Shown here piece by piece: positions 53,504 to 57,114 of a stretch of DNA of 64,000 bases; positions within the stretch are counted from its first letter, which is position 1, and the number at the start of each line of letters is the position of its first letter. Location: positions 1 to 64,000 of the forward strand of contig NZ_FOCX01000021.1 of assembly GCF_900110215.1 (NCBI RefSeq). The letters run 5' to 3'. Under the pieces are notes generated by a model that saw only the letters and a program-made list of their open reading frames with translations, did no database searches and was not told where the DNA came from. The stretch is from Halorientalis persicus. GTDB lineage: Archaea; Halobacteriota; Halobacteria; Halobacteriales; Haloarculaceae. The position numbers and the translations under genes are program-made.

Positions 53504-53605
53504 CCGGAACGCGACGGCTGGTGCCGTAGCCGCCCGCGTGGCCGGTCTTTGCAGACTCAGCAAATCGCCGGACGGTCTATGTGAGCCCCGCCACGACAAC
53601 GACGT

Positions 53606-54370
53606 ATGGCAGGTCCGGATTCATCGACGACACGCCGCGCCATGCTCGCTGGCATGGGGACGGTCGTCGCCGGCGGGGGGATCGTCTACGGCGCGTCACG
53701 TCTCGAGGGCGACAGCGCCGACGGATCGGCGTCGAACGAATCGAACGAATCGAACGGCGCGCAGTTACACAGCAGTACCGCGACGACCGGCTTCGGGATC
53801 GACCTCGGGGGGCACCCGATCCTGGGCGCGATGGACGCGCCGGTCGACGTGTACTACTGGAGCGACTACCAGTGCCCGTTCTGTCGCCGGTTCGAGCAGA
53901 ACACCTTCCCGCAACTCGTCGAGAACCACGTTCGTCCGGGGACCGTCCGCTACGTGTTCATCCAGTACCCCTATCTCTCCGAGTCGTCGACGACCGCTGC
54001 GATCATGGACCGGTGTGTCTGGCGACAGGTCCGTGACGCCGACCCCGGCCGCTACCTGGACTGGCACTCGGCGATCTTCGACGCACAGGGAACGAAAGGC
54101 TCGGGCTGGGCGTCCAGAGAGAACCTGCTGGAGATTACGGCCGGCGTCGAGGGTGTCGACGCGGACGCGGTCGGGACGTGCATGGACGAGCACGGCACGG
54201 AGATCGAGGCGGAGATCGACGCGGACGTCCAGCAGGCCAGACAGTTCGGGATCCGGGGCTCGCCGGCGTTCGTCCTCTACAATCGCGAGGCCGACAGGGC
54301 GGGGAAACTCGTCGGCGCACAGCCGTACGACCGGTTCGATTCGGCGATCGACAGGGTGAAAGACGCGTGA
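53606..54370 (+). CDS. DsbA-like exported thiol oxidoreductase (CPFC)
   Basis: This 254-residue protein has a Tat-type leader with TTRRAMLAGMGTVVAGGG (twin Arg, residues 9-10) and a Ser/Asn/Gly spacer, so it should be exported folded. The thioredoxin-like domain follows with the active site DYQCPFCRRFEQ (CPFC near residues 92-95), a helical insert with TAAIMDRCVWRQ, and the cis-Pro region GIRGSPAFVLYN. It would oxidise or reduce cell-surface thiols. The next gene begins inside its stop codon (GTGA), which ties it to a membrane protein with its own Cys motif. Confidence 0.92.
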   Translation: MAGPDSSTTRRAMLAGMGTVVAGGGIVYGASRLEGDSADGSASNESNESNGAQLHSSTATTGFGIDLGGHPILGAMDAPVDVYYWSDYQCPFCRRFEQNTFPQLVENHVRPGTVRYVFIQYPYLSESSTTAAIMDRCVWRQVRDADPGRYLDWHSAIFDAQGTKGSGWASRENLLEITAGVEGVDADAVGTCMDEHGTEIEAEIDADVQQARQFGIRGSPAFVLYNREADRAGKLVGAQPYDRFDSAIDRVKDA

Positions 54371-54912
54371 ACGAGACCGTCGCGGCACACGCCACGCGGT
54401 TCGTCGAGGCCGTCGGCTACCCGTTCACCTCGGCCGGGCGCACGCTCGCCACGGTCGGGTTCGCAGCCGTGACCTACGCCCTGTTGATCCTGTCTTCGTT
54501 CCCGACCTACTCGATGCAGATGCTCGCCGCGGGCCCGGGCTACCTCGACGACGCGGTCGTCGCACTCACCGCGAACACGTACGCCTCGGTCGGCACGCTC
54601 GCGCTCGCACTCACCGTCGTTTACGCCGTCGTGACCGGCATTGCCATCACGACGGCGATCGGCCGCATTCGCCACGCCGGCGAGGTGAGCGCTCGCGGCC
54701 TGTCCAGCGTCCTCCCCGGTCTCCTGGCCTCCGGCTGTGCGAGCTGTGGGGCCGGCCTCCTCGGCACCCTCGGATTCGTCGGTGCGCTCTCGACGCTCCC
54801 CTTCGACGGGAACCTCCTCCGGCTGGCCGGACTCCTTCTCCTCGTGGCCTATCTCTCCCGGCTCGGCGATCCGCGCTACTGTGCGATGCCGTCCGCGACC
54901 GGCGGCGAGTAG
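54367..54912 (+). CDS. Multipass membrane protein with GCASCG motif
   Basis: This 181-residue protein has a GTG start overlapping the DsbA-like stop. Hydrophobic segments lie at about 20-45, 65-95, 115-140 and 145-165. The third begins LPGLLASGCASCGAGLLGTL, putting a CxxC pair inside or at the edge of the membrane, and a third Cys occurs near the end (DPRYCAMPS). Translational coupling makes it the likely redox partner of the DsbA-like protein, in the way DsbB, VKOR or CcdA serve their partners, but it belongs to none of these by sequence that I recognise. Confidence 0.8.
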   Translation: MNETVAAHATRFVEAVGYPFTSAGRTLATVGFAAVTYALLILSSFPTYSMQMLAAGPGYLDDAVVALTANTYASVGTLALALTVVYAVVTGIAITTAIGRIRHAGEVSARGLSSVLPGLLASGCASCGAGLLGTLGFVGALSTLPFDGNLLRLAGLLLLVAYLSRLGDPRYCAMPSATGGE

Positions 54913-54942
54913 TCGGGCACGGAACCGACCGGACCGACCACC

Positions 54943-55197
54943 TCACTGCTCACAGCAGGTCGCGTCGGTGCGGTGTCGCCACACGACGGCGACGAGCCCG
55001 ACCGTCAGCGCCGAAACGGCGACGCGAACGACGCCGCCGCCCAGCGCCGCGGCCGCACCGCCAGCGACTGCACCGCCCGCGGCTCCGGTCGCCGCCGGCG
55101 CGGCGAACAGACAGCAGAGACTCACTGCGCCACCGACCGCCACGAGCGGCCACCGTGCGTCCGACTCGTCGTCGCCCTCCGCAGCCGCGTCCGACAT
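54943..55197 (-). CDS. Small membrane protein with CC motif
   Basis: This 84-residue protein starts MSDAAAEGDDESDARWPLVA. Hydrophobic segments at about 17-45 (VAVGGAVSLCCLFAAPAA) and 53-73, ending WRHRTDATCCEQ. The Cys-Cys pair in the first helix and another at the tail recall metal-passing membrane proteins such as MerT/MerC, although no such family is clearly matched. It follows the neighbouring minus-strand gene by 5 bases and is convergent with the GCASCG gene. Confidence 0.7.
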   Translation of the reverse strand: MSDAAAEGDDESDARWPLVAVGGAVSLCCLFAAPAATGAAGGAVAGGAAAALGGGVVRVAVSALTVGLVAVVWRHRTDATCCEQ

Positions 55198-55202
55198 CGG
55201 TC

Positions 55203-55643
55203 TCAGTCGGCCCCCGAACCCGTCGACGGCTGGGTGGCACAGTCCGCACAGGACCGCCGGGACCGAACGTAGAGCAGGCCAGCGAAGACGACGACGCTCA
55301 CCGCGCCGATCACGGGGCGAAGCGGGTCGAGATAGGTCATCAGGGCGGAACTACTGAACAGCGCCAGCAGGATGGCGTTACAGATCGGACAGCCGAACGC
55401 GAGAAAGCCCAGCGCTGTCCCGGCGGCCGCGGCCCCGTCGTCACCGCCGTCGGGCGTCCGCTGGTACGTGTAGAGCGCGAGCGCGCCCGCAGTCAGCGTC
55501 AGGAACAGGTAGTCCAGTCCCGTCCGCGGGACCATGCGGACGTAGAGAGGATTCGGAATCAATCCGGTGACGACCTCGAAGAGGACGAACGTGCCGGCCC
55601 CCACCGTCAGCGCTTTCAGGACGCGCATACGAGAACGGTTCAT
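55203..55643 (-). CDS. Multipass membrane protein with GCPIC motif
   Basis: This 146-residue protein starts MNRSRMRVLKALTVGAGTFV (ATG 55643). Four hydrophobic segments (about 10-32, 45-62, 78-100, 105-125). The third reads LGFLAFGCPICNAILLALFS, a CxxC in the membrane, and the soluble tail has SCADCATQPS, a second CxxC. It forms an operon with the CC protein (5 bases apart) and is divergent from the regulator at 55771. Function unknown; the paired membrane and tail CxxC suggest thiol exchange or metal binding. Confidence 0.78.
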   Translation of the reverse strand: MNRSRMRVLKALTVGAGTFVLFEVVTGLIPNPLYVRMVPRTGLDYLFLTLTAGALALYTYQRTPDGGDDGAAAAGTALGFLAFGCPICNAILLALFSSSALMTYLDPLRPVIGAVSVVVFAGLLYVRSRRSCADCATQPSTGSGAD

Positions 55644-55770
55644 ACCCCTCGTTCGTCGGTAGCCGACTAAAGCGGACTGGCTCTTTGCAGTCTTGTTCGG
55701 AATGTGCATTTCTGTTGTCGGTGATCGACGAACCACCGACGCTTTGGTTCTGGGTGGTCTCCATCGGGAC

Positions 55771-56130
55771 ATGGACGGTGGCGAGAACGCGTCGATCCCC
55801 GAGGTACTTCAGATCCTCGCGGACGACTACTCGCGGCGCATTCTGCTGGCGGCCGACGAGGAGCCACGGACGGCCAAGGACCTCAGCGACATCTGTGACG
55901 CCTCCCTCGCGACGATCTACCGTCGTGTCTCGACGCTACAGGACTACGAACTCGTCGACGAGCGATCGACCGTCGACGACGACGGTGCCCACCGCCGGAA
56001 GTACGAGACGACCCTCGAAGCGCTTCACGTCGAGATGGACGACGGCGAACTCGACGGGGCGGTCAGGACCCGTGACGAACTCGCGGACAACTTCACAGAC
56101 CTCTGGTCGAACCTCCGGGATCGCACATGA
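55771..56130 (+). CDS. Winged-helix transcriptional regulator
   Basis: This 119-residue protein starts MDGGENASIPEVLQILADDY. The helix-turn-helix is ILADDYSRRILLAADEEPRT, AKDLSDICDASLATIYRRVS, TLQDYELVDERSTVDDDG, in the ArsR/PadR-like style of small haloarchaeal regulators. The start at 55771 replaces a longer frame that runs back over the divergent promoter. It is divergent from the GCPIC operon across 127 bases and coupled to the membrane gene at 56127 by ATGA, so it may control the thiol genes. Confidence 0.85.
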   Translation: MDGGENASIPEVLQILADDYSRRILLAADEEPRTAKDLSDICDASLATIYRRVSTLQDYELVDERSTVDDDGAHRRKYETTLEALHVEMDDGELDGAVRTRDELADNFTDLWSNLRDRT

Positions 56131-56402
56131 TCGACGCCCCCGTCCTCCTCGTGAAACTCGTCACGCTCGTGCTGGCGCTCGTGGTCGCGTCGCTGGCCTA
56201 CCACGGCTACCGGCGCAGCGGGAACGAGCCGATGCGCTTCGTCGCCGTCGGGTTCGTGTTCATCGGCGTCGGCGCGATCTGTGAGGGGTTGATCTACCGA
56301 CTCTTCGGCACGTCGCTGCTGTCGGCGGCGCTCGTCCAGGCCGTCGTCGTCTCCAGCGGGATGGTGTTGATTCTGGCGTCGCTGACGCTGGGCGAGGAGT
56401 GA
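56127..56402 (+). CDS. Small three-TM protein (DUF7521-like)
   Basis: This 91-residue protein starts MIDAPVLLVKLVTLVLALVV. Three hydrophobic segments (6-25, 38-57, 66-86) and the motif YHGYRRSGNEPMRFVAVGF fit a haloarchaeal membrane family known from memory as DUF7521, often encoded after an ArsR-like regulator as here. ATGA overlap with the regulator gene means the two are made together. A sensory role for the membrane protein is possible but unproven. Confidence 0.8.
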   Translation: MIDAPVLLVKLVTLVLALVVASLAYHGYRRSGNEPMRFVAVGFVFIGVGAICEGLIYRLFGTSLLSAALVQAVVVSSGMVLILASLTLGEE

Positions 56403-56451: not shown

Positions 56452-56598
56452 ATGACCGACACTGACGACGCCGTAGATCGGTTCCTGGCCGAAGCGGAGA
56501 CCGTCTTCGAGGAGTACGATCAGGGCTACATGAACCCGGACGTGGCGCTGGAGCGTTTGCGGGGGCACATCGAGGATCTCGACGAGGCGACCGACTGA
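56452..56598 (+). CDS. Small acidic protein, unknown function
   Basis: This 48-residue protein starts MTDTDDAVDRFLAEAETVFE and continues EYDQGYMNPDVALERLRGHI. The helix-rich acidic sequence has a coding-like composition and a regular ATG start. It follows the thiol set and precedes the ferritin-like gene. No family is recognised. Confidence 0.55.
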   Translation: MTDTDDAVDRFLAEAETVFEEYDQGYMNPDVALERLRGHIEDLDEATD

Positions 56599-56658: not shown

Positions 56659-57114
56659 ATGACGAACGACGAGGTAATCGACCTCCTTCAGAAAGCGTAC
56701 AGCGACGAGATCGAGACCGTCATGAACTACATGACGAACTCCATCGTGCTCGACGGTGTGAGTGCCGAGGAAGTCAAAACGAGCCTGCAGACGGACATCC
56801 AAGAGGAGCTGAACCACGCGGAGATGCTCGGCCAGCGGCTGAAACAGCTGGACTCGCGCCCGCCGGGCTCGGCGGAGTTCGAGGCGCGCCAGCACTCGTT
56901 GCAACCCCCCGAGGATTCGACCGACGTACTCAGCGTGATCGAGGGCGTCCTCGACGCGGAGAACGACGCCATCGAGACCTACCGCAAACTGATCGACGCC
57001 GCCGAGGACGCGAACGACCCGGTGACCGAAGACATCGCGGTGACGGTCCTCGCCGACGAGGAAGCCCACCGCACGGAGTTCCGCGGATTCCGCAAGGAGT
57101 ACCGGCAGGACTGA
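56659..57114 (+). CDS. Ferritin-like diiron-domain protein
   Basis: This 151-residue protein starts MTNDEVIDLLQKAYSDEIET. Four helices carry the ferritin-type ligands: Glu in DEIETVMNYM, ExxH in EELNHAEMLGQRL, Glu in DAENDAIETYRKL and ExxH in ADEEAHRTEF. This is the arrangement of bacterioferritin or rubrerythrin-like diiron proteins without a rubredoxin domain. It would store iron or detoxify peroxide in the cytosol. The start is the ATG at 56659. Confidence 0.88.
   Translation: MTNDEVIDLLQKAYSDEIETVMNYMTNSIVLDGVSAEEVKTSLQTDIQEELNHAEMLGQRLKQLDSRPPGSAEFEARQHSLQPPEDSTDVLSVIEGVLDAENDAIETYRKLIDAAEDANDPVTEDIAVTVLADEEAHRTEFRGFRKEYRQD

Follow-up and report, generated by a model that had tools for sequence, protein, structure and literature searches.

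DsbB and VKOR are four-transmembrane (four-TM) partners of DsbA and carry two cysteine pairs. In the relays of CcdA, DsbD or ScsB with ScsC, a DsbA-like protein stands together with a membrane protein that holds an in-membrane cysteine pair, and ScsC, itself DsbA-like, binds Cu(I) (PMC8900818). For mercury, the mechanism of MerT and the path from MerP through MerT to MerA have been summarised (PMC5715351). For thiosulfate, an in-membrane cysteine relay has been proposed for YeeE-YeeD (PMC11073785). Here a set of six genes, P1 to P6, is described from a 64,000-nucleotide stretch of the haloarchaeon Halorientalis persicus (NZ_FOCX01000021.1, positions 1 to 64,000; the window). A DsbA-like protein (P1) is encoded next to a four-TM protein of no named family (P2), this pairing recurs across Halobacteria, and a shared palindrome ties the genes of the window together. 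With a confidence a little short of even, the set is read as a dedicated, jointly regulated extracytoplasmic thiol-redox module. Literature searches on DsbA in haloarchaea, and on DsbA together with YeeE or persulfide, turned up no paper.

The gene set and its cysteines

The features of the locus are as follows.

53606 to 54370, plus strand: P1, Tat-exported DsbA-like protein with a thioredoxin fold (Pfam Thioredoxin_4); CPFC at 53873-53884; second conserved cysteine pair C137/C192
54367 to 54912, plus strand: P2, four-TM protein, GTG start; GCASCG in TM3 (54733-54750); C172 in the predicted cytosolic tail (54880-54882)
54943 to 55197, minus strand: P3, small two-TM protein; CC in TM1 (55111-55116); C-terminal CC (54952-54957), ending in CCEQ
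55203 to 55643, minus strand: P4, four-TM protein; GCPICN in TM3 (GCPIC at 55380-55394); CADC in the predicted cytosolic tail (55239-55250)
55771 to 56130, plus strand: P5, winged-helix regulator (Pfam HTH_20, E 2.6e-7)
56127 to 56402, plus strand: P6, membrane protein (Pfam DUF7521, E 8.6e-19)
53548 to 53564, unstranded: predicted palindromic operator TTTGCAGACTCAGCAAA, 58 bp 5' of the P1 (dsbA) ATG
55684 to 55700, unstranded: predicted degenerate operator copy TTTGCAGTCTTGTTCGG, between the divergent P4 and P5

P1 and P2 overlap by 4 nucleotides (GTGA). P4 and P3 are convergent to them and lie 5 bp apart, with P4 the upstream gene, while P5 and P6 diverge from P4 and overlap by 4 nucleotides (ATGA). 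A preliminary description of the window had listed this layout, both overlaps, the motifs CPFC, GCASCG, CC, GCPIC and CADC, and the winged helix; all six open reading frames and all of these elements were confirmed at their positions. The observed gene set and its cysteine motifs are well above chance. Downstream of P6 follow a 48-residue open frame (56452-56598) and a ferritin/Dps-like gene (56659-57114), which are found in the genus and absent from the wider module.

P1 is, judging from its profile matches, a member of the DsbA family. It exceeds the Pfam cut-offs for Thioredoxin_4 (E 1.1e-19) and DSBA (E 3.7e-9), and its best match among PDB profiles is BdbD (7.9e-33), the closest solved relative. 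It carries a Tat-type RR leader; CPFC is kept in all 23 aligned rows and P220, the cis-proline, is also invariant. P1 thus resembles the DsbA/BdbD family in profile, CxxC motif and conserved proline, but it would be partnered with P2 instead of DsbB/BdbC or VKOR.

No Pfam or NCBIfam family matches P2, P3 or P4 at its cut-off. The suggestion that the multipass proteins lie outside named families therefore holds for P2 and P4, and their CxxC motifs, whose conservation the preliminary description had put forward as a test, are essentially invariant in orthologues. In P2, C124 and C127 are present in 44/44 aligned rows and C172 in 43/43. In P4, C85, C88, C132 and C135 are present in 28/28 haloarchaeal rows, and C85 and C88 in 23/23 rows that include bacteria; across these 23 rows CPxCN, R36, P39 and P107 are invariant. 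The tail CxxC of P4 occurs in most haloarchaea, and one tail cysteine is left in many bacterial members. Selenocysteine in P4 was considered and rejected: the search reads through the ordinary stop codon that follows the tail CxxC, and this is the in-frame TGA of many matches. The CC of P3 is found in 13/13 aligned rows. Charge bias suggests an N-in/C-in topology for P2, its CxxC lying in TM3 and C172 in the cytosol; P4 is compatible with this topology, less clearly. AlphaFold2 (AF2) models fit four TM helices, with a fair pLDDT for P2 (81) and a weak one for P4 (63), and PDB profile searches with both proteins gave chance matches only.

Two damaged copies were seen. At L124:5631-6029 a decaying P2 copy, its motif now GRASRG, lies beside an intact P4. 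A short remnant matching both P2 and P4 (L247:6661-6840) lies inside a TusA-DsrE-YeeE island and is probably a deletion relic of the pair.

Conservation of the neighbourhood

Among 242 haloarchaeal genomes P2 is present in 64, P4 in 67 and P3 in 57, with strong co-occurrence of all three. The P2 loci that come from named species number 69, and every one is from Halobacteria; the 62 full-length loci were searched in six frames for enrichment against 40 control regions, hand-picked at arbitrary coordinates in the same group of genomes. The loci are kin by descent, so enrichment p-values are indicative only.

A DsbA of the P1 type is present in 61 of the 62 loci and in none of the 40 controls, and in most it is directly adjacent to P2. 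P6 is found in 41/62 loci (1/40 controls) and P3 in 27/62 (0/40). P4, P5, thioredoxin (Trx), TrxB, TlpA, SCO1, TauE and CcdA-like genes are also enriched near P2. Many genera share the set. Its neighbourhood, which the preliminary description had proposed to check, is conserved beyond this genome, across Halobacteria and partly in bacteria. A distant P2 subfamily (L240-L244; GCAACG, about 33% identity, cysteine in a ...INGCPVD tail) has DsbA adjacent in four of five loci, once with a 4-nucleotide overlap, and these loci lie in ordinary, unrelated chromosomal surroundings. No P2 relatives outside Halobacteria were detected by plasmid tblastn with two seeds or by a GTDB pattern scan.

A shared palindrome

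A 17-bp palindrome with the consensus TTTGCTGR-S-YCAGCAAA was derived from 59 perfect-arm sites in P2 loci (L139-L207). It is a new finding that ties the window genes together. It lies 5' of DsbA, P2, P4 or P5, in many loci at about -60 from P2 and about -55 from P5. With at most one mismatch allowed, the P2 loci (1.10 Mb) hold 86 sites and the control regions (0.66 Mb) hold 1. The preliminary description had counted the regulator as part of the set, and the palindrome, which tracks P5/P6, supports this: a site with at most one mismatch is located 5' of DsbA, P2, P4 or P5 in 32/41 loci with P5/P6 and in 2/25 without (Fisher 2e-8, the loci not being independent). P5 is the candidate ligand of the palindrome, a role suggested by this co-occurrence and by its winged helix.

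In the window, the site at 53548 is a perfect-arm palindrome and the sole match with up to three mismatches in the 64 kb. A pattern search of the 4.87-Mb genome found three TTTGC-N7-GCAAA sites, of which only the one at 53548, in the window, also agrees with the consensus in its inner part. The window has three copies of TTTGCA, two of them at the sites 5' of P1-P2 (53548) and between P4 and P5 (55684). The half-site in the P4-P5 gap is kept in 7/7 loci of this arrangement, and in L144 a perfect palindrome stands there. A compensated variant with matching changes in both arms (TTTTC-N7-GAAAA) is found in Halorussus, Halogranum and relatives. In four Natrialbales loci (L174:12154, L184:15879, L185:12122 and L199:15972) the palindrome is located 5' of a carbamoyltransferase gene, a possible extra regulon member.

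A probable second thiol system and its direction

The preliminary description had proposed that the multipass proteins could be unrecognised partners of this DsbA. The premise that it needs a general partner is weakened by a classical DsbB (C50:289316-289675), which adjoins another DsbA gene on another contig of the same genome (pair G000:C50:289316-290228); given this pair, the genome does not lack a general oxidase partner. No VKOR was found in this genome by Pfam profile search. The DsbAs adjacent to P2 form one clade (support 99/95), to which four paralogues from this genome do not belong; it is also separate from the DsbA linked to the genome's own DsbB. Since this clade is distinct and a separate DsbA-DsbB pair exists, the module is probably a second thiol system with a dedicated task, distinct from the one responsible for general disulfide formation.

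It is highly improbable that P2 serves in oxidation, replacing DsbB or VKOR in function and generating disulfides de novo in the DsbA-like protein. The strict DsbA-P2 pairing and the lack of VKOR in this genome would suit such a role. However, DsbB is present with its own DsbA, P2 has three conserved cysteines and not two pairs as in DsbB and VKOR, the presence of P2 is independent of that of VKOR across genomes, and the neighbouring genes point to reduction. As a general DsbB substitute P2 is ruled out by the genome's DsbA-DsbB pair and by its independence from VKOR. P2 and P4 would resemble DsbB and VKOR in role only, as four-TM membrane partners of DsbA.

In the favoured thiol-redox reading, P1 would act outside the membrane and exchange disulfides with the in-membrane CxxC of its physical partner P2, of which P4 would be a paralogue-like relative. 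The tail cysteines (C172 of P2, CADC of P4) may link the partner to cytosolic thiols such as thioredoxin. P3 would be an accessory two-TM dithiol protein, and P5 may control the set by binding the palindrome, with P6 probably co-transcribed. The relay is probably reductive because the genome holds the separate classical pair and because the reductive neighbours Trx, TrxB, TlpA and CcdA occur near P2. Cytosolic electrons would then maintain P1 and its client proteins in the reduced state, or allow P1 to act as an isomerase.

CcdA, DsbD and ScsB with ScsC share with the set a DsbA-like protein and an in-membrane cysteine pair, but P2 and P4 have no sequence similarity to CcdA, and where CcdA occurs beside them it is a separate gene. 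The genome has one CcdA-like gene, next to a TlpA-like gene. Haloarchaeal CcdA-like genes have no Pfam DsbD_TM match; they are so labelled because hhalign profile-profile alignment matches their small type to bacterial CcdA (87%) and their large type to that small type (98%).

Several observations weigh against the thiol-redox reading. P2 and P4 match neither DsbB nor VKOR profiles, and hhalign gives 0.3-0.4% against bacterial CcdA and at most 0.5% against haloarchaeal CcdA-like sets. No quinone or heme site is evident in either protein. Foldseek searches of the PDB with their AF2 models gave nothing better than E 2 and no redox-enzyme fold neighbour. In L102-L104 CcdA lies 3' of P2 and could reduce alone, and P4 occurs without DsbA in L249-L252. 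In bacteria, copper genes are frequent neighbours, with some P4 genes near copper P-type ATPases. Finally, P4 aligns with MerT, a metal transporter, at 84% (E 7.6e-6), in a single pairwise hhalign test against a shallow MerT alignment of four sequences.

The earlier interpretation is partly supported. A partnership of the DsbA-like protein with P2 and P4 has become much likelier, and the Trx, TrxB, TlpA, SCO1 and CcdA-like neighbours and the bacterial operons described below strengthen the thiol link. On sequence grounds, transfer could be oxidising or reducing and could involve electrons, sulfane sulfur or metal. Sulfur or Cu(I) is a real rival cargo, because a CxxC outside, a CxxC in the membrane and a CxxC or single cysteine inside parallel the MerP-MerT-MerA and YeeE-YeeD paths.

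Possible kinship with MerT and metal as a possible cargo

P4 also aligns with P2 (91%, E 1e-6). In both P4 alignments the CPxC region is opposite the cysteine region of the other family. About 20 hhalign controls, among them reversed profiles and profiles of further membrane families, stayed at 8% or below, except TlpA (24%, a 17-residue match). P2 compared directly with MerT gave 0.2%, and no relation of P3 to P2, P4 or MerT was detected by hhalign. P4 is below the curated MerT cut-off (15 bits versus 150), and PF02411 reached E 0.0079 at best, in 3/23 P4 members. P2 and P4 are distant relatives, and P4 appears remotely MerT-like. The family searches that had been proposed gave no similarity of P2 and P4 to DsbB, VKOR or CcdA and, for P4, a remote one to MerT. 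A MerT-like role had been named as the main alternative; given the P2-P4 kinship and the P4-MerT resemblance, it is not separate from the redox one in fold or ancestry.

It is unlikely that the set is a MerT-type thiol-metal transporter, for which Cu(I) would be the likeliest cargo. In it the DsbA-like protein or P3 would bind metal outside, and P2 and P4 would pass it through the membrane pair to the tail pair. The P4-MerT match stands above its controls, and P4 has the cysteine layout of MerT (PMC5715351), an in-membrane pair and then a cytosolic pair; an in-membrane pair and then cytosolic cysteines are also shared with the other Mer transporters MerE, MerF and MerC. Cu(I) binding by the DsbA-like ScsC is a precedent (PMC8900818), and copper P-type ATPases, CsoR-type regulators, DUF305, SCO1 and multicopper oxidases are found near several loci. 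On the other side, the core set has no metal-binding partner (HMA, MerP), P2 itself has no MerT similarity, and copper P-type ATPases are not significantly enriched near P2 (6/62 versus 1/40). P4 also differs from MerT in its four helices with the pair in TM3, in CPxCN instead of CC, and in occurring without MerA and MerP. Mercury as the cargo is disfavoured: no MerA over cut-off was found in this genome, and P4 and MerA do not co-occur (MerA in 2/64 genomes with P4 and 24/170 without).

P4 relatives and sulfur as a possible cargo

Stepwise tblastn uncovered P4 relatives in Actinobacteria, Alphaproteobacteria and Thermomicrobia, where public records annotate them as 'hypothetical protein'. In two Arthrobacter strains and in Pseudonocardia the order is DsbA, CcdA, P4, with overlaps of 1-4 nucleotides; in Rhodococcus erythropolis DsbA-CcdA is divergent from P4. 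Azospirillum has a DsbD-type protein, DsbA and P4 (4-nucleotide overlap), followed by DUF2892, sulfurtransferase, MBL, TauE and YeeE genes. The pairing of a ScsC-like DsbA with a ScsB/DsbD-type reductase that marks the Scs system is seen only in bacterial P4 loci such as this one; the window set has no CcdA/DsbD.

Other P4 relatives were noted. Those in L249, L251 and L252 have ACPHCN and lack both the tail CxxC and DsbA; a Dps-like ferritin gene was seen by eye adjacent in L251 and L252. One from the same phylum, outside the class (L239:6357-6764, G424), lies about 2 kb from a heavy-metal P-type ATPase.

The haloarchaeal islands have two recurrent flavours, one of sulfur genes (TusA, DsrE, YeeE, rhodanese-MBL, SQR-like) and one of copper/cytochrome-oxidase assembly (SCO1-TlpA-CcdA-like). 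The former bears on a persulfide (sulfane sulfur) relay, which is rather unlikely. Here the DsbA-like protein would collect sulfur outside and P2 and P4 would pass it via the membrane CxxC to the tail, then to TusA, DsrE, a rhodanese-MBL dioxygenase or a CoA-disulfide-reductase-like (CoADR-like) enzyme. In many haloarchaea DsbA-P2-P4 lies in islands with TusA, DsrE2, YeeE/YedE, rhodanese-MBL, TauE, SQR-like, CoADR-like and DUF302 genes, and Azospirillum and Arthrobacter/Rhodococcus have the same sulfur context. Near P2, rhodanese-MBL is found in 21/62 loci (1/40 controls), CoADR-like genes in 24/62 (3/40) and DUF302 in 18/62 (1/40). The YeeE-YeeD thiosulfate relay is a precedent: YeeE/TsuA, found in the same islands, may hand sulfur species along cysteines to the cytosolic TusA-like YeeD. 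That system as described, however, has no DsbA-like member (PMC11073785), and P2 and P4 have no hhalign similarity to Sulf_transp (YeeE/TsuA) proteins (0.1-0.6%). Moreover, no sulfur genes lie beside the set in the window or its genus mates, P2-DsbA pairs also occur in plain chromosomal settings, TusA and DsrE2 are only weakly enriched (p 0.03), and DsrE2, present in 205/234 haloarchaeal genomes, is nonspecific.

Implications

DsbA-like proteins outnumber known membrane partners, and little is known of how archaea move thiols, sulfane sulfur and soft metals across their membranes. Should P2 prove to be a DsbA partner, about a quarter of the sampled haloarchaeal genomes (64/242) would carry a partner type that belongs to no named family. 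With its predicted operator, the regulon can be tested directly. It is possible, though somewhat doubtful, that P2 and P4 represent two lineages of a single undescribed membrane superfamily of archaea and bacteria, distant kin of MerT, that forms a general transmembrane dithiol relay moving reducing equivalents or persulfide sulfur, with DsbA-like partners outside and sulfur-transfer proteins or thioredoxin inside. Such a relay would be a route distinct from DsbB, VKOR, CcdA and YeeE, and a connection between MerT-like and redox proteins would bring the fields of mercury transport and disulfide chemistry together.

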